NCBI GenBank assembly: GCA_016098155.1
Contig: JAAAJB010000032.1
Span: 46,314 to 110,313, forward strand
Source: Actinomortierella ambigua
Lineage: Eukaryota; Mortierellomycota; Mortierellomycetes; Mortierellales; Mortierellaceae
Direction: 5' to 3'
Length of the DNA stretch: 64,000 bases
The position numbers and the translations under genes were made by a program. This document shows, piece by piece, positions 26,749 to 58,647 of the stretch. Position 1 is the first letter of the stretch. Each line of letters starts with the position of its first letter. Below the pieces are notes generated by a model that saw only the letters and a list, made by a program, of their open reading frames with translations, searched no databases and was not told where the DNA came from.

Positions 26749-29434
26749 ATGAACAGGACACAGGCTGCACTACATGCCCTTCCAAGCGACTTGATCAACA
26801 AACTATGCCGATCAAAAGTGACGCGGCTTTCGGTATGTATTTCTCCTTTACCATCAGCATCGTTCCTTCAGCAAGAGAACAGACATATATGCATTCGACA
26901 CTGACCTCTTGATTTCGCTCAACATCTGCAGCTCAAACATATGTACACCCTGGGCAGGTAAGACGACTCGCCCAAGTACGAGGGCTGCCTGATGAGATGG
27001 AGAGGTGGGGTCGGGAAAGGAGAGAGAGAAGGGGTGTGACAACAACAGCTTCTGAGGCAAGGGTCGACCAACCAGCCTCCTTCCACACTCACCCCTTCTT
27101 TTTTTTCACATTTCTCCCTCTCCGGACTGTCCATTGGTTTGGCATCGTGAAGGAAGGTTGAAAGTTCAAAGAGTGTCAGCATGGTTCCAGATCGAGTAGC
27201 GACCATGACTATAACATCATTGTGCACTAGTGCCAAAAGGCTATAAGACCGAGTCATTTTTCTTCTCACTCGTTGAGATTGGATGGCGTTGGGCGTATGA
27301 ATCTTGAGATTTGTTGAAGGAGGAGACCGGGTCTATGCGAGACACTCGGCACTTCCCTCCCCCCCCAGCCCCTTGTTCCATGGAGAAATGACTAACATGA
27401 GTGTTTGGCGTCTCTTACAAAATCTTTACAAAATTAAAAAAGACATGTCCTTGAGTCAAAGAGTCAGGGCGCACTGGCAATTCCGGCAGTGTTTCTCCAT
27501 TCGGAGCTCCCTGTTCGTCTGTCGCACGCCCTCTCGATGCTAAAATCCAACCAGCTGCCTTTCGATCTCTCCGAGATGCCCAACTTCCAGCATATTGCCC
27601 GTTCGTATCTTGAGGACATAAGGTAACAAATTACCACTGGTGTCTCTTTTTCTTTTTGGAGGTGCGTGGGTATGAGTGTGGGGTAGAATCTGTCCTCCCA
27701 TTCTCTTTTCCACTTTCCGTCTCCCTCGTGCACGCGCGTGCGTTTTGTCGTCGTTGTTTTGCATACACAGACATAAATACTGTGTTTCTCTGTCACAAAC
27801 AACCCCGACGGGCCGAGGTACATTGGTGTTTTGACTTTTTTTTTTTCCCCTTCCCGTCCGCCTGCTGTGAACGATGGTCAGGCCATTTACTCATCTCGTT
27901 GGCGAGTGGAGGAAAAGAAAAGCAAGTCTGAAACTTGCACATGGGAATGCCGAAACAGCAATACAGGGTGTAAAACTGACTCCATTGCGCTGCTTTTGTT
28001 GATTTTCTCTTTTTGACTCGTTTACTTATGTCAAATAGTATGATCACACAAATGCAGAAACCTTCGACACCACAACTGGAAGAGGAGTTCACGGCACTAC
28101 TGAGGAATCTGGAACAGGGTCACAAGATCAAAGTACTGGCCATCAGTCGAGGTTTTCGGGAACTCGTCGACAGGATTCGGGAACAATGTGGCGATCCAAC
28201 TATTCCATTCGGCACAACAGATAATAATGTTTTTTACTCCAACGGAAAGGAATGGGTCATCAATCCACTTGCAGACAAGGCCATCCAGACCTTTTTTAAT
28301 CGTTTTTATACTATGAACCTGGGCACAAGGCTGTTAATTGGTACGACTTTGGGAAGCTTATGGGATACAAAACATGTATTGTCTGCAAAAAAAAAAAACG
28401 CGCATTACTCACTGCCGAATCCTCGTTTTTCTTGAATAGGCGAACATTTGGCACTCCATGACCGAGGTTTGAATCTTGTTCAGCGCGTGCATCCTTTGAC
28501 CATCTCCCAACGAGCCATCCGCGATGCTCAAAAAGTTTGTGCGGCGCACTATGGCGAGGCGGCTCCATCCGTACTTGTCCACACACCCAATCCCGATATC
28601 CAAACAACCTATGTCGAGGAGTTTTTGCACCGCAACATTTTCGAGTTGCTGAAGAACGCCATGCGCGCCACCTGCGAAGAGCATCTTTACAAGGGCTCAC
28701 CCATCTCCATTTCCACGTCACCATCGTCAACCAAGGCAGGGACAAAGAATTTGCCACCAATTAAGCTGGTCTTGGTCGACGGCGGCGAGGATGTCACCAT
28801 CAAGATTTCGGACGAAGGCGGCGGAATGGCCTTGAGTGAGATTGACAAGATCTGGAGCTACGTGCACTCAGGGAACCCATCCAACCTTCGCAAGTCCAGC
28901 TCAAACTTTGTCTCCCGGACAAGAACGACGACCACGCCGTACCAGCCCAGCGCACCCAACACATCTACGCTTTCCACATCCAGCATTGTGAAGCAGCATG
29001 AAGTCCCTTTGTCTTCTTCAATACCCACTTCTCAGCCAGCGGACTCGATGGCGGTCATGGGCGGACTGGCGAGCGAGGCGAAGGACTATCTGGAGCTGCC
29101 GCTGAATGGCTCGGGACATGGTCTACCTCTTGCCCGACTGATTGCACGCTATTTTGGCGGAGACTTGTCGCTCATTTCTATGGAAGGATATGGAACGGAC
29201 TCGTACCTTTCGCTGTATCGTAATGATGACCATCTGGAAAACTTTCCCGAGGTCGACGAGGAAATGGCTACTGAGGTCGAGGTGTTTGTAAACGAGCTGC
29301 TGGACGAACCAGAGCCACCTAGCCAAGAAGAGGCATCCTCCTCGTCTTTGGGACCTTGCTCGTCACGAAACCCACCTACAGTTAGCATCCCATCGTTGGC
29401 TTCAGCGTCGTCGGCCATCCGTATTACTGTGTAG
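26749..29434 (+). CDS. Mitochondrial pyruvate dehydrogenase kinase family protein
   Basis: Five exons: 26749-26832, 26932-26957, 27443-27622, 28039-28340 and 28440-29434, giving 528 residues. It has an N-terminal four-helix BCDHK-type domain (VFLHSELPVRLSHAL, then FFNRFYTMNLGTRLLIGEH) and a C-terminal GHKL ATPase domain. ATP-site boxes are the N-box ELLKNAMRAT (Glu266, Asn270), SDEGGGM (Asp322) and GSGHGLPLARL, followed by LEGYGTD-like MEGYGTDSYL. Members phosphorylate serines on the E1 subunit of pyruvate or branched-chain dehydrogenase complexes and switch them off. Compared with human PDKs it has a Thr/Ser-rich insert of about 80 residues between the G1 and G2 boxes and a roughly 70-residue disordered tail. 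The N-terminus lacks an obvious mitochondrial presequence. Pyruvate versus branched-chain specificity cannot be settled by eye. Confidence 0.92.
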
Positions 29435-34092: not shown

Positions 34093-37000
34093 ATGAGGGG
34101 CAACAGCTCTGCACCTGCACGGCTGCCCCACCACATGCTGCTGCTACTGCTGCTACTGCCTGCATCCGCTGCGCTCAATAATCATGGCTATCATCGACCT
34201 CGGCATCTTTCCCCCTTGCTCTACATGCTCTCACTCTGCATCCTTCTCACCTCCTTCTCCTCGACTGTCCTCGGACAGGCACCTAATCCCCCTCCCTCCG
34301 ACTCTATCAATCCCAACCCTACAATGACCAGCATTGTCATGCCCACATCAACGAGTATCGCCCCTGTAAATCCCAACAACCGTCTCCCCGGCGCCTCGAT
34401 CATCTCTGGCGCCTTTGCCCCTGTTTGCAGCTTCAAAGCGGATAGGGCCACCATCAGGGTGGTTTCTCCATGTATGTGTGAGGATCTTTTTCCAAAAGAA
34501 AAAAGAGAAAAAAGAGAAAAAGAAAAAAAAGAGCGAGAGGAAAACAGAGAGCCTCTCAATTTATAAGCATGTCGCTCGCCTTTGTTACCGACATGAGGGT
34601 TCTCCAGCCATTTCGAGCAGGAACATTCCTCGGGGCACAGAAATATCAATGATCGACATACGCCACTAACCACTCGTGTTTTTTTCCCCTTTTTATACCC
34701 CCTGCACCCCGTGACCCACAATCCCCATGTCACCCCCCCTCTCTCCTTCTCTACCCCCTCTCCCTCAACAGTCCTTGGAGGACCCGACCGCTCCCCTCAC
34801 TCGAGGGCCTTGGCGGACCTTCGGCCTATCCTTCCGTCCGTCGTGGAAGTGAACGACGAATTGAGTGGTGAATATAACATCCAGAAGATGGCTGGGACTA
34901 TTGATAACCTAATCAACTCTGGCGACGTTCAAGGCATCATAATGTCGATCCCAAGCTATCCAGAATTGCAGGATCACATCAAAAGCGCCAAGAATAAAGG
35001 CATTGCCGTTGTGGCGGCCTACACAGGCTTAAGTGCCGCCAGAGACGCGGGCATCGTGGCCGTCATGTCCGACGAGCACGAAGCTGGCCGGCTCATTGGT
35101 AAACGGTTTCTCAAGGATGGTAAGTGAGATCTACAGATCACTCGCTTGTTGACAATTTCTCGAATTGAGGGGCGGGAGGTTGACTGATGTCCACGTTGAC
35201 TTTTTTTTTTTTGTATTTTGTAGACGTTCGGGACTTTGTGTGCATCAATGGGAATGGACTCCCACCCAGCTTGCTTGACCGATGCAGAGGCGTCCTTGAC
35301 GCATACTTAAAAGCGGGCGTCTCCGTATCGTCGAATATAACAGACCACATCATCTCCTTGGAGAAACGTACTGCAAACTCAACCAACGTCGCCTCGGTGA
35401 CCGAGCGAGTGTTGCAGCGTCGAGATGTGAGCGGCATTGTCTACATGACACACTCTGTCTTTGCAGAGTTGGGTGACGCTCTTCCGACCACACTCAATAA
35501 CACGCGTTATCGCTTCGCCGCCTATGACTACAGTCGCCCAATGTTGAGTGCACTCAACAATGGCAAACTACACTATGCCATCTCAGGCCTACCCTATGTT
35601 CAAAGTGTTCTCGCGATTCTATTGCTCTACGTGCAGGTAATGCAAACAAAAGACAGGCAGACCAACTGGAAAAAACGTGTCATGTGGGCTCATCTATCCC
35701 ACCGGACTCATCTAGGCATGAAACTTAATCTTTAACCTTGTATCTAATAATTACCTTCCTCCCCTCCCTCGTCTATGGACCCAAAAAAAAACACACAGCT
35801 GAACGTTGGTGAGAAGCTCCATCCAGGAGGAGGCATCCTCACTGGCCCTCGACTTGTGACTCGTCAGAATGCACGCAGCATGCTCGCCCAAGAAGAGTGG
35901 ACCATCCCTAGCTTTGGAGAATTCGTGGACCAGAGAACATTTAGCATGATCACTGCAGCGTAAGCAGACATTTACACACACACGCACACACACATACACC
36001 TAACAAAGATTACCCCGAGACTACCTCATTGAAAACTCGACGTTAACTCAAAGATTCCTCCAAAATCTTTCCATCCATCTAGGTCCTCCCAAAATTCACG
36101 GTGGGGCGGCATCTCCATTGGAGCGAGGGACGCGGCCAACATGCTCAGCTTTAACATGACCGAGTATCGCTACGATACACCCATTCGACCTGCGACAGTA
36201 CAAGCGACTATCGCCGAGGCCCTCAACAACTCTAAAACGCTTGGACTGATTGTCAACAACGATCGCGCGGAGTACGTCGAATATGCCGTCAACCTGACGC
36301 GATCCATGGTGTCGGAAAGGACAGCGCGGGCGAACAGGACACAGTACGAGGCATGCGAGGATATCCGGGATCAGTTTCAGACGCCGGACGCCTGTAATCT
36401 GTTGCCGCCATGGAATTTCACGCTGAACCAGGTGCTCCCGTTGCCGGTGGTCGGAATCAGCCCGACGAGGGGCCACGCGACGGCGAACAATCTCCAGTGG
36501 ATCGGCGAAGACTCGTACGCATCCGGCCGGGATTATGCGGACTCTTTTTTCACTAATTCACGGTTTAGGCCGATTTGTGTGGTGGAAGAAGACCAGCCGG
36601 AGCCGCAGTTAGAGTTGTGTCGTGGCATGTATGACCGGATGAAGGAATTGTCGCGCGTCGGGATGCCACCGTGGGAGACGTTTTTGATGACACTGATCCT
36701 AAACGACTTTACGGGGACGTTGCGCAAGGTGGAGGAACTGGATAAGCAGTACCCGTTTGACGCGATGCATATTGCGTCCGATGCGCTGTTTGTCAACTTT
36801 GACTACCAGTTGACGAAGGGCGCCATCCGGGACAACTTTACGGTATCGGTCACTGGACGGTCTGGTGTGACGATGGATGCGTTTCAGTCAGGGAGGGTGC
36901 AAAGGTTGTGGTCGCAGCAGTCATACCTGACAGGGTTCATGTCTGTCATTCAGCTGGCGTTTGCGACGGTGATGCAGGACGTGACGTGGGATGTGATGTG

Positions 37001-40000
37001 GACGGGCCCGGCATCGATTAATTACGCCTGTCCCAAGGGCCATTTTTTCATCCAGAACGTCGATGCGTTGTACTGCCAAGTCAACAGCACGGGCACACGG
37101 TTAGATTTCCACACAGGCAACCGGTACTGCCAGCCGTGCGAGACTGGATTTTACAGCGATGATACCAACAGTGAAAAATGCACAAAATGTCCCGAGGGCA
37201 CGTTCACAAACACCACAGGCGCCACCTCGTGTATGAGCTGCGACGAACATGGCCCGGACAATGGCAGCTGTGCCGACTACTTTATCAACAAGTCCAAGAG
37301 CAACAGCACCAAGCTCGCCATCTTCATCCCAACTGGATTGGCCATCTTGATCGCGCTCGTCTCCATGGGCATCGTCTATTACGTTCGCTCCCGCCAACGA
37401 CATCGCCGCCTGCATGATGACTCTTGGCAGCTGGACTACAAGCGCATCATGGGTGAATACCACGACAACGAGACTGATATGGACTCGGGTCATGGTACTG
37501 CCGGTGGCGGAGATGGCGCAGATGGCGGAATGGGTGGTGCAGGTGGTGGAGACGAAGGAGGGTATGACAAGAAGGGCGGATACGACAGCGGCGACCGGCC
37601 AAAGCAACAACTTCAAACGACTCGGTCCATCGCCTATGACAATGGCAGCCACCGTCTTGGCTACTCTTTTGCTTCCAGCATCCTCAACAGCTGCAGTAAC
37701 AGCAACAGCAGCAACAACAACAATACTAATAGCGGCAACAACAATGGCAAGAGCTCCAAGAATGGCCGACCGATTGGCATGTTCAACCGCAGCCACTCGA
37801 CTTTTGTGGGTGGCACCTCGGGGATCAAGCCGATGGATGAATCTGGAAAGGCGATCGGAGTGTATCGCAACTTGCCGGTGATGGTACGGCGTATCGGTGG
37901 CAACAAGGTCGAGCTGACGCCACGACTACGACTGGAGATCATGGACGTGTTGGAGTTGCGTCACCCAAAGCTGATCGAGCTGATCGGCGTCTGTCTCCAG
38001 CCACCAGATGTATGCATTGTCTCCGAATATTGCTCCAAGGGCACGCTGACGGAGGTGCTGGCGAACCCGGATCTCAACTTCAATTGGCTCTTCAAGCTAT
38101 CGTTCATGTCGGACATTTCGCGCGCGTTGGAGTTTTTGCACATGTCCAAGATCCAGTACCACGGCAGCCTCACATCGTCCCAGTGCTTGATCACCAGTCG
38201 ATGGGAGATCAAGGTCGGCGGCTATGGCATGCAGCATCTGCGGGAAACCCAACGGCCAGAGTTTTTGCGCCAGGCGACCTTGTCCTCCAACCTGTCACCT
38301 CGGAATTACGGGAACGGCGGTACAGGTACAGGCAACCGGGGCTCAATGCGTATCAGCAGCGACAGCCACAATGGCCTGCAGCAGCAGTTGAGCTTGTTCG
38401 AGGAGGAATACGAGATGGAGGACACGCCGTCGGAGGTGTGGCGAACGAACTGGGAGATTCTGGAAGGACGGTGGGTAGCACCGGAAAACCTGGTGCATTC
38501 GGGGCCCGTGTTTAGGAAGCAATCGAGCCGAGCAGGCGATGTGTACTCAGCAGGCATTGTCTTTAACGAGATCATGACACGGAAGGAGCCATACTGGCGG
38601 CAGGTCAAGGTGCTCGAACAAGACGAGCTTGGACCGGGGATATTGATGGACATGATCAAGTTCCAGCATCTGCGACCAGACTTTTTGCTCGATGATGCGT
38701 CGGACGAGAGCATTGGTGCGGTCAATGCGCTGATTCGTAGCTGTCTGCAACCGGACCCGAACCTGCGACCGACGTTCCCCGTGATCTTGCAGCGGCTGCG
38801 GATGATCAGTCCGGACGGTGACATGATTGGCGGCATGGCCAACTTGCTGGAGCGGTATGCGAACGACATGGAGGATCTGGTGCGGACGCGGACGATCCAC
38901 TTGCAGGCGCGGACGGCGGAGCTGGAGGAGGAGCGGTTGCGGACGGTGGCGTTGCTTCAGGATCTAGAGTTGGCGAAGAACCACGCCGAGGCCGCTGCGA
39001 TGGCAAAGAGCAACTTCTTGGCCAACATGTCGCACGAGATCCGAACACCAATGAACGCCGTCATTGGCATGTCGCGGATCCTGCTCGAGTCGGATCTGTC
39101 CCCGGACCTGATGGACTGTGCCGAGACGATCGAGTCGAGTGGCAACCAGCTGATGGCGGTCATTGATGATATCTTGGACTTTAGCAAGATTGAGTCTGGC
39201 AAGCTCAAGCTGGCCATGGATAAGCTGGACCTACCGTGGATGCTCGAGTCGGTCTGTAACCTGGTCTCGGTCCAGGCCGGCATCAAGGGCCTTGGTCTGA
39301 CGTTTGTGGTCGACCCAGAGACACCGATCCAGGTGTTGGGAGATTTGGTCCGCATCCGTCAGGTATTGCTCAACTTGCTCAGCAATGCCATCAAGTTTAC
39401 GGACAAGGGTAATATTGTCGTCCGACTAGAGCCGCAGCCTCGCGCCTTCTTGACGCCCTCGCAGCGGGAGAAGCAGTACATTGACCAGTACGGAGCCCCC
39501 GAACACATGGGTGGTGAAGGTGCTAGCGAAAACATGCAGCTGATGCGATATGGTGAACATGACGAGGGCGTGAATGGCTATCGTGGCCGAAGCAACTCTC
39601 GTCACTCGGCGGGTCAAGATCACAACAACACGGCCTCTTCGCCTACGACGATGACGTCTGTGACAAAGTCATCGTGGACGGCGAAGCATCAACGCAATGG
39701 CAGCACACCGACAACCAAGTCTGGGCCAGGCGAGGATGAGCAAGAGGTGTCGTTGCTCTGGTCGGTGGCGGATACAGGCGTAGGTATCCCTGCGGCCAAG
39801 ATGGATCGCCTGTTCAAGACGTTCTCGCAGGCTGATGACTCGGTCACGCGCAACTTTGGCGGTACCGGTCTTGGCCTTGCCATCTCCAAGCGACTTGTTG
39901 AACTCATGGATGGTGATATGGTACGTGGTCAAAAGCTTCCTTTCTCCAATTTTTTTTCATTCCTCTCTTACCATCGAGCTTTTGCAATATGTACTAACTC

Positions 40001-43000
40001 TCTCATATTTTATTATTTTTTTTCTCAGTGGGCAGACAGTGAGGAAGGCATCGGATCGACGTTCTACTTTACGACAAAGCTGATCTCACCCAAGGCCAGC
40101 CCGACGGTGACGGAAAAGTTCCAGCTGGCATTCTTCCAAGACAAGACGCTCATGATCCTGGACGATCGCCGAGTGACGCGTACGTCGTGGACGTACTTGT
40201 CTTCGACGTGGGGATTCCAACGGGTGATTGTCATGAACGTCCACAAGGGTCTGGATTTCCTGATCCAGAACCCGACGACCGTCGATGTGATTGTGATCGA
40301 TATTGACAAGGCCAATGCCAAGGTCAACCCGGGTCTCTCGCTCCTGGACCAGATCCGGGCCATCCCACGAACCATTGAGGGCTCGGACGAACCCGCCAAA
40401 CCCCCCATTCCCTGTGTGTTGATCTCGTACCATCGTCGTCAACAACAGCAGAACTCCATCTCGGCCGCCACTAGCTTTGACCATGGTCATACCCACCTTG
40501 GCTCACCGGCCACTCCTCCCCCTGTGCCTCCCCCTGCTCGCAAGCGCAGTCCAAGCCCGGCCAACTCGACCGTCTCGACGTCGACTGCAACGCCATCCAA
40601 GGTAGCAACAGCATCAGCAGCAGCTGTTGCTACCCAGCCTCAGCAGAACGCAGCCGCGAGCAGCAGCCACGAGAGCATCTCGGAGAGCTTCCAGAGCCAG
40701 CTGTCGATGGCACCGTCCAACACAACGACGCTGGTGGCGACGAACGAGAGCTCAGCATCGAGCAACCGTACCAGCACGAGCAGCAACGGCAGTATTGGTG
40801 GTGGAGCCGGTAGTGCGCTCGGTCTGGGAGTTGGTCCACGAGCACTGTCGTCGTTCAAGCGTCAAGACTCGATGGCGAGCCAGTCGGACCATCACGACCC
40901 TCCTCATCCTTTGGATAGTGTAGGCAACGGCGGTGATGCTGGTAGAGCGACAGGCACCGGTGCTGCCGGCACTGGAAGAAGCAGTGGCGGAGGCAGAGGC
41001 GGGTATGTTGACGACGAGTCGTCGGCGGTGGCCAAGGATCACAAGGGCTACAACACGCCAAACACGATGAACAGCAACTTGTTGACGGCCAAGCCGTGGG
41101 GCATGCTGAGCGGCCGCTCGGCCAGCTACTCGAGCCTGTACACGGCTGCCAAGTGCTCGTCGCCGACCCGACCGGATCATCCTCCTAACGGAAGCACCGG
41201 CCCTGCTGGTGAGAGTGGTAGTGGTGGTAGTAGCGCAAGTGGCAACGGTGGCGTTGGTGGCGACAGTGGAAGTGGCAGCGCCATCACGAATGCCAACGCC
41301 AACGTCAGCGCCAACAGCGGCAGCAACAGTACCACCACCATCACCAACAACAACAAGAACGGCAACGGCAACGCTACGAACGTGGTGGATGCCAACTCGG
41401 ACAATGTATCGCTGGGCCATCTGACACGACCCGTGAAACCGTCAAAGCTGTTGCCGATGTTGCACGGGCTGATGTCGGGCAACTGGCCACCCTCGACAAG
41501 TGTGGCGCCGGACACGGCGTCGCGCGATGATGATCGTCGGAAGCAGTTGGCCAAGATCAGCTGTCTGCTGGTCGATGATAACCCGGTCAATCAGAAGGTG
41601 ATCTCGCGCATGCTGTTGCGGATGGGCATCACGGCCGATGTGGCCAGCAACGGTCGCGAGGCTGTTGAGATGTGTCAGGCTCGCGCAGAGCGTGCGGCCG
41701 AACATGCAGCCCAAATGCGCAAGAAGGATGGTGGTGGTGGTGATCGTCGTTCGACCGTGTCAGCGGAGACGTCCAAGGATCAACAACCATCATCATCTTC
41801 ATCTTCATCATCATCATCGTCGACAACAACGATGGCCGAGTCGCAGGACGAAGAGGCCGCCAAGCAGAACCGTCAGTACGACCTGATCTTTATGGACATT
41901 TGGATGCCCATCTTGTCGGGTCTGGACGCGACGATGGAGCTGCGGTCGACGGTGCCCGGAGTGATGGTTCAGGAGCCGTTCATTGTGGCGATGACGGCCT
42001 GTGTGATGCCAGGTGATCGCGAAAAATGTCTCGAATCAGGTATGAACGAGTACATCAGTAAGCCCGTCCGTCGCGAAGAGCTGTGGTCGATCCTGGAAAG
42101 GTGGCTCGATGACCGGGCGCGAGCCGAGGAGATCCGCAAGGTCCAGGAGGAGAAGAAGCGGCTGATGCGCAAGAAGCGCGAGATGCTGCAGCGTCAGGGC
42201 ATCCTCACCCATCATGGCCCCAATTCGGCCATGATGAGCCCGTCCGCGGCCGCGGCCTTCCGGGCCCGCGCTGCCAGTGCCCACGGTCCAGCTTTGGTCA
42301 ACCCGTTCGAGGCGGCGGAGTTTGGAGATTCCGCTGCGGGGTTGGACGAGGAAGGGCGTCGCCGCCACCAGGAGGAGTATGATGATGACGACGATGACGA
42401 TGATGATGACGATGGTCCCTTGGATCATGGATCGATCCATAGCAGTGTTGGCCGGTGCAGTGAAAACTCGGACGTGGAGGCCGGGATGGAGAACGATGAC
42501 AATGACGACGGTAGCAACAACAGCAGCAGCCAGCGTCTGCGAGCAGCGCGGCGGTGTCGCAGCAAGCGACGCGAGCAGGCCAAGGCGACGGAGATGCAGC
42601 AGGCACTCCTCGAATATAGCGAGGTAGGGGGCGTCGGCGTGGGCGGCGGTGGTGGCGGCAGCCTGACGCAGGTGCGGTTGGCGGAGGAGTGTCGAGCGGC
42701 GCGGGATCGACAGCGCGAGAAGCGAAGACAGCGACGGTCGATGGAGAAGCTTAAGGGCAAGGACAAGCATCACGACCGACGACAGAAGCGGTTGGAGAAG
42801 GTGAATGCTGACCGGGATCCACTTCAGCTCGCTTCGTTGCCCGCGCCGAGCCCGGCTTGGTCGTCGCTGCTTCCCCCACACGAGCAGGAGCAGCGGCGGC
42901 AGCAGTCCAAGCAGCAGCAGAAATACCATCGCGGTAGCTTGACGCCACTGGACCTGGACCCGTCGCGTGGTTTGCCATTGGTGGATGAGCGGATGCTGCG

Positions 43001-43364
43001 GGCTTCGGAAGATGAGGAAGATTCGGAGGATGATGATGATGACTCGGACGATAGCGAGCTGGAGGACTCGGAAGAAGAGTCGGATGGCGCAGCCACGTCG
43101 TCGATCCGGACGGTGAGCAGCACTGGCCGACCGATCCTGGACCGGTTCTCATCCCGGGCGACGGTAGAGTCGGCCGCGACCACGACGACGACAGGCTCGT
43201 TCCATACGGCACGCTCCGTGCACTCGCCCTCGCCGACGCCGTTGCCACTGCGGCCACCATCGCGTCTCTCAGGGTCGTCCGCTGGAGGTGGGCGCAAGTC
43301 TGCGTACAGCAGCTCAATGTTTACCGACCCGGCCACCCTCAACACCATCCGTGCTGTGATTTAA
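34093..43364 (+). CDS. Receptor-type hybrid histidine kinase with kinase-homology domain
   Basis: Six exons: 34093-34471, 34772-35119, 35224-35636, 35799-35959, 36083-39920 and 40029-43364, giving 2824 residues. Order: hydrophobic N-terminal signal region (two stretches before residue 60); two periplasmic-binding-protein-like lobes pairs (about 90-430 and 434-745); a Cys-rich segment (about 750-835); one membrane span (about 843-866); a protein-kinase-like domain (about 1027-1337) lacking catalytic residues; a helix beginning [13 protein letters not shown] (about 1353-1395); HisKA with His1418 in [16 protein letters not shown]; HATPase with [17 protein letters not shown] and [10 protein letters not shown]; a degenerate receiver-like region (about 1745-1835); and a receiver with Asp2229, Asp2230 and phospho-acceptor Asp2336 in FMDIWMP. 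A disordered charged tail of about 400 residues ends it. It should sense an extracellular ligand and feed a phosphorelay. No Hpt or cyclase domain is present. Confidence 0.93.
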
Positions 43365-56534: not shown

Positions 56535-58647
56535 CTAGTACCGGACACCAGCTTGCATAGGCATGGCTCCACGGCTGGCCGGTGGTAGTGATGATGGTGC
56601 CGACGTGTTTGACGGTGGCATCCGTGCCATGTTATGCTGCTGAGCCATCGGTGACGAACCCGTCATCTGCGAGGATGACGAGGGAGGCGGAGGCGGCAAT
56701 GGACCTCGTCCGTGGCCCATCACTGATCCCTGTGCCACTCCAGAGACTGCGCCCGCTGCGCTCATAGCCATTGGCTTGGCTCCATTAGGCCCTGTAAGAG
56801 AGGCTCCTGGGGGAAGAGGTGGTGGTGGTCCGTGCGGAGACTGCTGTTGCTGAGACGCCTGAGGACCCATTGGGTGATGCGGTCGACCAGGCTGAGGCAT
56901 ACCGCCGCACTGTGGGTTGTACCCTGAAGGGTTGCTGATCGTATCGACATAAACGCCATTCGCCTGTGCCACCGGACAATCCTTGTGGGCCAACAGCAAT
57001 GCCTTCAGATGGATGATCTCGTCTCGAAGAGCCGCTGTTTGGCTCTGGAGATGCTCATTGTCTGTCGTGAGGTACTCCACCTTGGCCTGCAAGTTGGACA
57101 GCCACTGCTTCTTTCTCTGGCGACATTTCAATGCAGCTATATTTTTAGATAAAAGATCACAGATATTAAGGTCAGCTCTCAACGCACATTTTTTTTCAAT
57201 GACATTTCAGGCTCATCATAAACCACACACATACACACACGAGCAACCACAAAAAAAAAAAAAAAAACGCTTGTGAAACATTTTTCTCGTACCTTGGCGG
57301 TTTCGCTCCAAAAAGTTGCGACGCTTCTCCTCCTCATCCATCGGGGGTTTTTCGTCCTTCTTCTTGCCACTCTTTGATGCACCACTTGCCGAATTACCGT
57401 TTTTGTTGCCATTGTGATTGGAGCTGTGATGGGATGTCGTATCGCTGTTATGTGTGGAGGACCGCTTTGACCGATCCGAGTCGTCGCTATGCTCTTCCGA
57501 ATCCATGCGACTCCGCCGAATGCCACGTGGGCTATCGTCATTCATATGATGTGTTGGCATGTGCGAGGCTCCATGTGGCATCGAGTGCGGGTGGTGTACA
57601 TTTCCTCCCATCACCGACGGGCCTACGTTACCGTTGCTTTCGTGCTCCCGCTTGATCCACATTTCACGATGTGTTGCCTGTGCCTGGCTCAAAAGATGAA
57701 GATTGCCATACGCCTCGGCCGATTGTGCACCTTGTTGTGGGGGCGCCTGACTGGGCATGTATCTCTGATTCATCGTTGGCTGGTTAGATGGTGGGAAGGG
57801 CTGGGAGCGAGGATCGCCATGACCCGGCTGAGGAGGGAGAGGGTGGGCTTGTGGTGGAGGCGGATTGTACATGTTGGGTGCAAATGGCTCTGCTGTTGGG
57901 CCTGCAGTACTGCCTATGGCAGCTGGAGGGGGTGGGAGTGTGTGAGAGCCAGGCACCTCCAGGAACGGCGGGACAGCGTTGTCGGCAAGTGGCGGTGGTG
58001 CAGTTGAAAAAATATTGGAGATGGAAGCTGTCGTGGTGGGGAATGAGCCAACGGGAATAGGGTTCTGGGGTTTCTCAAAAACAATGGGGTTTTGTGGTCC
58101 TTCGAGCATCGACGGTGACAATGGCCCCATACGCAGTGACTGAGGGTCCCACTCAAATTCTGTACCAGATGGAAGGCGACCGGAAATGGCCTCAATAGGT
58201 GGCAGTACTGGTTTGGGTGTCTCTGGCTTGAGCGATGACGGTGATGATGAGTTCTTGTCACCTGTCATTCCTGAGAAACTTTGTTCGAAAGGGTTGGGTT
58301 CCATGTCCAGTTTTGAGCTCGCCTGCAGATACCGGACAGGACTTCCGCCGTTGACGGGTGCCGCAAGTGGTTTCTCCCGCTTCTCGTCCTCTGCCGCCGT
58401 AGCAATGATGAAGGGTACTGCATTCGACGACGGTGGCATATCTATGTGATCAGTTAAAATGACATCATTCATCAATTAGCACAGGACTTTGAAGAGACAG
58501 ACAGCGCATTGAAGAGTCTTTTCACCACACCACAGACATACCACCAGATTGGGGAGCGACGTTATTTGCTGATTGCACAACGGAGATGGGCCCCTTGAGA
58601 TCGCCTCCGGGGACAAGGTTTGTAGGCAAGGTGCCAACGGTTGTCAT
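56535..58647 (-). CDS. Atf1/CREB-type bZIP transcription factor
   Basis: Three exons: 58542-58647, 57293-58441 and 56535-57136, giving 618 residues. The bZIP domain, about residues 405-475, straddles the last intron: NRQ and AALKCRQRKK form the DNA-contact motif NxxAAxxCR, then heptad leucines run through VEYLTTDNEHLQSQTAALRD. An N-terminal segment KLDMEPNPFEQSFSG near residues 90-105 matches the Aft1 HRA-type motif of fungal Atf1 proteins. Pro/Gln/Ser-rich activation-like regions fill the rest. Relatives are targets of the Hog1/Sty1 stress kinase pathway and bind TGACGTCA-type sites. A TGACG half-site lies in the catalase promoter of this window. The start ATG lies 36 codons before the intron and has a plausible context. 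Confidence 0.92.

Follow-up and report, generated by a model that had tools for sequence, protein, structure and literature searches.

A fungal hybrid histidine kinase receptor with a probable relay of the animal receptor guanylyl cyclase type

The gene found at positions 34093–43364 on the forward strand of a 64,000-nucleotide stretch of DNA (the window) from Actinomortierella ambigua (Mortierellomycota) very probably encodes a hybrid histidine kinase receptor with a single membrane pass, of a kind found in early-diverging fungi, in which a catalytically dead kinase-homology domain and a signalling helix are homologous to the relay of the animal receptor guanylyl cyclases (RGCs). The architecture and its kinship to the RGCs are hardly open to doubt. 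The order of the domains, the kinship of the kinase domain, the RGC character of the helix, the loss of catalytic residues, the intact motifs, and the lengths, which mostly preserve the heptads, are seen directly. An earlier note on this DNA (the original prediction) had proposed a binding-protein-like ectodomain, one membrane span, a dead kinase-like domain, and HisKA, HATPase, and receiver domains, all of which were recovered by Pfam, hydropathy, and the splice model, and the YHGSL loop and the helix motif that it quoted are present as cited.

The kinase-homology domain (37836–38813, forward strand) adopts a kinase fold in the AlphaFold2 (AF2) model. When this domain alone was compared with the PDB sequences, the best matches were GC-A (2.8e-33, 118.9 bits) and GC-C (3.8e-23, 85.5 bits), with the next kinases scoring far lower (CTR1, 52.7 bits; ABL1, 50.5 bits; next non-RGC E value 3.6e-13), and the best GC-A block covers 130 ungapped residues, 42 of which are identical. 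The 17 PDB sequences matched at E ≤ 1e-20 by the whole of the relative P0018 are histidine kinases, GC-A, and GC-C only. In the first homologue search, 43 of the 45 matches that were not of the fungal type carry PF00211, that is, they are cyclases. In another of the searches, the Piromyces protein P0145 reached 204 bits against guanylate cyclase 32E of the wasp Diachasma alloeum. The main open frame also matches Pfam PK_Tyr_Ser-Thr at 8e-22.

A tree of the kinase domain, from which the helix was excluded, separates the fungal (20) and RGC (18) rows from the tyrosine kinase (TK) and tyrosine kinase-like (TKL) rows (14) with a support of 100/99.9, after the removal of six long-branch rows (P0063, P0086, P0104, P0105a, P0105b, and P0153); in an earlier tree, which kept the long rows, this grouping was weaker (90/60). 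The approximately unbiased (AU) test, applied to groupings chosen after inspection of a first tree, rejects the fungal rows with TKL (0.014), with TKL and BRAF (0.029), and with TK (0.034), so that both the tyrosine kinase and the TKL placements against which the original prediction asked for the domain to be checked are rejected (p-AU 0.014–0.034). The RGC kinase profile outscores the TKL profile in 20 of the 20 fungal rows. The membership of the kinase-like domain among the kinase-homology domains of the animal RGCs is thus strongly supported by sequence comparison. In a ranking by structure only (VIA-align), GC-A is absent among the best 50 matches listed, which are RIPK2, RAF, and BTK kinases.

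A similar domain might also have arisen if a typical TKL or Ser/Thr kinase domain, such as that of the group X fungal histidine kinases, had decayed into a pseudokinase and converged on the RGCs. Decay in the RGC direction can occur twice, given that L012, a TKL kinase of the same genome, also has HG and DYG in the place of HRD and DFG. However, the likeness over the 130 ungapped residues extends beyond the decayed motifs, the Piromyces-type rows, which retain the Lys and DFG, reach the top fungal scores with an RGC profile built on 39 of 49 candidate RGCs (the other 10, without the helix pattern, were excluded), and the AU tests reject both the TKL and the TK placement, which leaves convergence remote in the extreme. 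L012 itself (contig C509), an independent, pseudokinase-like kinase with the loop HGHLRSTN, has RGC-like motifs but groups with the TKL kinases. The EukProt protein P0105, which lies outside the studied family, combines a 7tm_3-type receptor with two TKL-like kinase domains, the second of which is without HRD.

At the catalytic positions, the window protein has VMVR, in which the Lys of VAIK is replaced by Arg, HGS for HRD, and GYG for DFG, and it therefore lacks the three residues (VAIK Lys, HRD Asp, and DFG Asp) expected of an active TK or TKL kinase. Within the clade of the window protein (clade A), Arg replaces the VAIK Lys in 59 of 59 rows, and G or S replaces the DFG Asp in all 34 of the readable rows, the pattern not being found in the other 25. 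These replacements, together with the missing HRD Asp of the window protein, argue against a kinase-like domain that is still an active protein kinase and would give the receptor two kinase outputs, a very remote alternative, in favor of which HGD is retained in 30 of the 36 clade A rows (of 59) where the motif was found.

The Lys is retained in six of the seven aligned rows of a second Mortierellomycota clade, in which GYG is found in seven of seven, while both of the Piromyces-type rows retain the Lys and DFG. GC-A, GC-B, GC-C, and GC-E are reported as ATP-binding pseudokinases (PMC9672810). Given the residues retained in these two groups, the family may have started, like these animal cyclases, from a pseudokinase that bound ATP, with nucleotide binding probably being lost in the Mortierellomycota. 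The pseudokinase of the window’s clade, which has lost the Lys of VAIK and the Asp of DFG, probably functions in the absence of Mg-ATP, whereas the animal domains are regulated by ATP. The activation-segment region contains a low-confidence, probably disordered insert (38280–38423, forward strand; predicted local distance difference test score below 50 in model residues 150–197), which differs in length among the relatives and is Ser/Thr-rich by eye, and may for these reasons be a site of phosphoregulation.

The signalling helix (38823–38966, forward strand) is of the RGC type with one extra heptad, the exact place of the seven residues being ambiguous. As signalling helices (S-helices) are common in histidine kinases, a test of class was needed for this likeness. 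The RGC-helix profile, based on 17 of 41 candidate pieces picked by eye for diversity, gives the window helix 35.8 bits, compared with a best score of 18.1 bits among 2,000 class-preserving shuffles (1,965 scoring), in which the hydrophobic positions were kept. Four other kinases of the same genome were cut for helix stretches, three of which gave a score with this profile, all below zero, and a single RGC helix, used as a query against the entire 33.8-Mb genome, has the window gene as its sole match (E = 0.025). The RGC profile also outscores a bacterial S-helix profile, made from 12 of 78 stretches taken from 80 loci, with Sln1p not among them, in 97 of 97 fungal helices (28–48 versus 5–19 bits), four of the 101 fungal rows having been excluded from the scoring for want of the phosphoacceptor box. 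A score with the RGC profile was obtained for 68 of the 78 bacterial stretches and reached 25.1 bits at best. Twelve of the 78 score higher with this profile than with the bacterial one. The shuffles and the bacterial profile thus provide strong support for a helix that is RGC-like beyond its coiled-coil composition, and the lack of any further similarity, which the original prediction had considered, was not seen.

Two results weigh against this reading of the helix. The 61-residue helix alone has no match in the PDB at E ≤ 1, and several bacterial kinases (including L024, L025, and L028) align along nearly the whole of the helix and HisKA stretch, at 44–48%. The latter result, like the frequency of S-helices in histidine kinases, would be expected if the kinase-homology domain were RGC-like and the helix had been brought in by the histidine kinase, like those of Sln1p or the bacterial sensors, in which case only half of the relay would be shared. 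The preference of all 97 fungal helices for the RGC profile over the bacterial profile (of 12 sequences), and the ungapped alignment of the Piromyces-type helices with the RGC helix, at about 48 bits, nevertheless make a separate origin of the helix improbable.

The lengths of the RGC-type helix vary mostly by whole heptads. The Mortierella and Thamnidium helices have exactly seven residues more than the RGC helix, and those of P0041 and P0035 are longer by two further heptads, with repeats of the LQARTAD type, which forms a natural series of whole-heptad insertions (0, +1, and +3 heptads) already made by evolution. Of the 97 members with both motifs, 93 have a spacing of 59 between the Tyr of the helix and the phosphoacceptor His; three (P0041, P0144, and P0145) have 73, or two heptads more, and the Thamnidium protein has 76, possibly through a retained intron. 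In the AF2 model, one continuous helix of 89 residues (331–419) starts where the kinase-homology domain ends and takes in the first helix of HisKA, and this prediction, together with the exon that these parts share, agrees with the passage of the helix directly into HisKA that had been proposed from the sequence.

The gene model comprises six exons (34093–34471, 34772–35119, 35224–35636, 35799–35959, 36083–39920, and 40029–43364, forward strand) and 2,824 amino acids without a stop, and all five introns have a GT donor and an AG acceptor; the open spliced frame, the consensus splice sites, and the relatives support these limits. The best database match is the A. ambigua locus DFQ27_004577, which is identical over the searched region, and whose public model (P0001) begins at 34324 and omits part of exon 3. 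The kinase-like domain, the helix, and HisKA all lie within one uninterrupted exon (36083–39920), and both the kinase domain and HisKA are found in 57 of the 62 fungal-type proteins of the first homologue search, according to their precomputed Pfam lists, the other five (P0013, P0035, P0048, P0060, and P0062) appearing to be truncated. The locus is almost certainly one gene and no artefact, to judge from the shared exon and the fused relatives. Two separate genes are very unlikely on the same grounds, and an assembly chimera or chance joining is ruled out by the 57 relatives.

The output of the protein follows the hybrid histidine kinase pattern. HisKA, the dimerization and phosphoacceptor domain (39003–39200, forward strand, as for all the features of this gene; Pfam 3.8e-20), has its His codon at 39033–39035, and HATPase_c (39300–40080, outer limits approximate; Pfam 1.6e-19) contains the N (39372–39401), G1 (39771–39791), and G2 (39858–39887) boxes, a long insert, and the intron at 39921–40028. 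A first receiver-like domain (40140–40439; MILDDRR...IVIDID, by eye) is probably degenerate, and is followed by a second, canonical receiver with a loop insert (41553–42122; Pfam Response_reg 3.8e-21), in which the DD, Asp, and Lys motifs are present, the phosphoacceptor Asp codon being located at 41895–41897. No PF00211 cyclase domain was found in the main frame or in the precomputed Pfam lists of the 62 fungal-type proteins, and there is no Pfam match to HAMP, a feature of the Sln1p type, at E ≤ 1 in the main frame. As there is no cyclase domain, the protein should make no cyclic GMP, and the phosphorelay output that had been proposed in its place agrees with the intact HisKA, HATPase, and receiver.

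The ectodomain begins after a signal peptide or N-terminal hydrophobic region (34093–34275, approximate, from hydropathy and sequence) with a first periplasmic-binding-protein-like domain, which is spliced (34393–35858, limits approximate; Peripla_BP_4, PF13407, precomputed for P0001). A second such domain, of the sugar-binding type (35946–37046), is followed by a Cys-rich membrane-proximal stretch (37104–37286; Ephrin_rec_like, Pfam 1.5e-7), which matches a mastigoneme-like protein (4e-12) and EphA2 (4e-4). By hydropathy only, a single strong hydrophobic stretch is found after the signal region (37311–37379; Kyte–Doolittle 2.46 over 19 residues), which corresponds to one transmembrane span, and a weaker one (model residues 361–379) falls within the first binding-protein domain.

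Pfam identifies Peripla_BP_4 in the relatives P0018 (6e-13), P0059 (2.5e-17), and P0146, with no match to ANF_receptor (PF01094) at E ≤ 0.1 in these three proteins, and no ectodomain match at all in P0144. The second ectodomain module is assigned by its fold to the sugar-binding proteins, with XylFII in rank 10–11 among the structural matches, and no natriuretic-peptide receptor among the best 50 listed. Profiles of the ectodomain (9, then 22 fungal rows) gave a probability of 0.1–0.2% against 14 RGC ectodomains, which is a weak test, as the two modules of the one ectodomain themselves scored only 2% (E = 0.024), and the method is thus blind to the remote kinship of binding proteins. The broad binding-protein fold is common to the fungal and RGC ectodomains. 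The proposal of a shared input and relay module is strongly supported for the relay, in the type of kinase and the helix, and is not supported for the input: as no assignment of the ectodomain to the ANF-receptor family was obtained, the input is probably not shared. The ligand is probably a sugar or some other small polar molecule.

The matches to Hpt (histidine-containing phosphotransfer) domains in the same genome, the type of its cyclase, and the intact HisKA, HATPase, and second receiver all point to a dimeric sugar-type receptor that would switch histidine autophosphorylation. Two Hpt matches (PF01627) are above the cut-off, and these proteins may be partners of the window kinase. The one class III cyclase match (PF00211) is preceded by a PP2C-like frame, an arrangement also found in the fungal adenylyl cyclase Cyr1, and looks like an adenylyl cyclase. 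In the proposed mechanism, the protein would work as a dimer that is rearranged by the binding of the ligand to the tandem binding-protein ectodomain, the pseudokinase would hold or free the coiled coil, and one continuous helix, which leads out of the S-helix into the bundle of HisKA, would rotate or slide and so switch autophosphorylation. From its motifs, the window protein would be expected to autophosphorylate on His and to transfer the phosphate to the Asp of the second receiver, from which it would pass to an Hpt protein and the response regulators; the direction of the switch and the downstream pathway are presumed steps. The mechanism as a whole, in which a sugar-type receptor acts on a phosphorelay by way of a pseudokinase and coiled coil of the RGC type, is reasonably probable.

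The survey of the fungi that share this architecture, which the original prediction had suggested, found members in the Mortierellomycota, Mucorales, and Neocallimastigomycota. As the three homologue searches gathered proteins that share five-residue words within a range of lengths, this distribution is a minimum. The 103 cluster representatives, some of which are fragments, include two paralogous clades in the Mortierellomycota, one protein in the Mucorales (Thamnidium elegans P0146), and two of the Neocallimastigomycota type (Piromyces finnis P0145 and P0144). A second RGC-type histidine kinase of the same genome (L010/L011), on the separate contig C245, has a kinase-homology domain with an identity of 45–48%.

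The fungal rows group together in the tree (100/98), as do the RGC rows (87/45). It is possible, if only tentatively, that the kinase-homology domain and helix are an ancient opisthokont relay module which predates the RGCs, and which was retained on a histidine-kinase phosphorelay in the fungi and on a cyclase in the animals. If so, the relay of the animal natriuretic-peptide receptors and GC-C would be a re-wired sensor of the two-component style, and the coiled coil would be interchangeable between the two outputs, provided that whole heptads are kept. A transfer of these two parts from an animal RGC into an early fungus, where they became joined to a histidine kinase already present, is a more doubtful account, which concerns the history of the protein rather than its mechanism. 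The AU test does not reject the nesting of the fungal rows within the RGCs (p-AU 0.068 for the 32E-like group, 0.26 for P0069/P0071, 0.19 for nematode/76C, and 0.50 for P0064), and the RGCs retrieved are from named animals or unnamed sources, with no named protist RGC among them. The position of the RGCs on one side of a branch (87/45), and the presence of the fungal domain in three phyla, with long internal branches, argue against a transfer, but neither is decisive.

Two other frames of the window contain recognizable domains. At 28436–29431 (forward strand), a HATPase_c match (5.5e-8), with the motifs FLHRNIFELLKNAMRAT and GHGLPLARLIARYFGG read by eye, presumably represents a kinase of the mitochondrial pyruvate dehydrogenase type and not a two-component kinase. 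The Aft1_HRA and Aft1_OSA domains (2.7e-6 and 7.2e-6) at 57219–58475 (reverse strand), approximately 14 kb from the histidine kinase, are characteristic of Atf1-like stress bZIP factors; their proximity is possibly coincidental.

No description of this architecture was found in the open-access literature, the scope of the search, with subscription journals and preprints falling outside it. A survey of S-helices places the helix after a kinase domain only in the animal RGCs (PMC1592074), and a phylogeny of 2006 dates the origin of the animal RGCs after the split between animals and protists and states that fungal guanylyl cyclases had not been reported (PMC1435932). The histidine kinases of Mortierella elongata were listed by Herivaux et al., who mention unprecedented transmembrane types, and the present gene may be in their table without the RGC relationship (PMC5285503). 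In passages of a review of the eukaryotic histidine kinases, neither Mortierella nor guanylate cyclase is mentioned (PMC6944256). Some database names hint at the kinship (“RGC/RGC protein kinase” for P0018, “Receptor-type guanylate cyclase gcy-13” for P0121, and “Guanylate cyclase” for P0146), which the RGC-type relay would explain, although two of these names mislead about the output. Rhodopsin-linked cyclases have been found in fungi since 2006.

Like the animal RGCs (GC-A/NPR1, GC-C, Gyc32E, and Gyc76C), the fungal protein combines an ectodomain of the binding-protein kind with a single span, an HG-type kinase-homology domain, and, directly after this domain, a YANxxExLVxxRT signalling helix. 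It differs in its ectodomain, which is of the Peripla_BP_4 or sugar type rather than ANF_receptor (Pfam), in its HisKA–HATPase–receiver output in the place of a cyclase, in a helix that is one heptad longer, and in the loss, in the window’s clade, of the Lys and Asp of the ATP site. The relay of the natriuretic-peptide receptors is thus very probably present outside the animals and without a cyclase, given that a fungal sensor couples the same relay to a histidine kinase, and this natural module swap offers a means of asking how a pseudokinase and a coiled coil transmit signals.

The fungal hybrid histidine kinases (16 groups and the early-diverging types; PMC5285503) also have HisKA, HATPase, and a C-terminal receiver, with an Hpt partner expected, whereas here the Pfam matches include no PAS, GAF, HAMP, CHASE, or ethylene-binding domain, and the input would be relayed through an RGC-type pseudokinase. 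Like the Sln1p-type kinases, the protein is a transmembrane receptor with an S-helix ahead of the histidine kinase, but there is no HAMP by Pfam, and a pseudokinase stands between the membrane and the S-helix. The bacterial XylFII–LytS pair, which senses sugar, also drives a histidine kinase by means of a binding-protein fold of the sugar type, although there the two functions are found in separate proteins, and without a pseudokinase.

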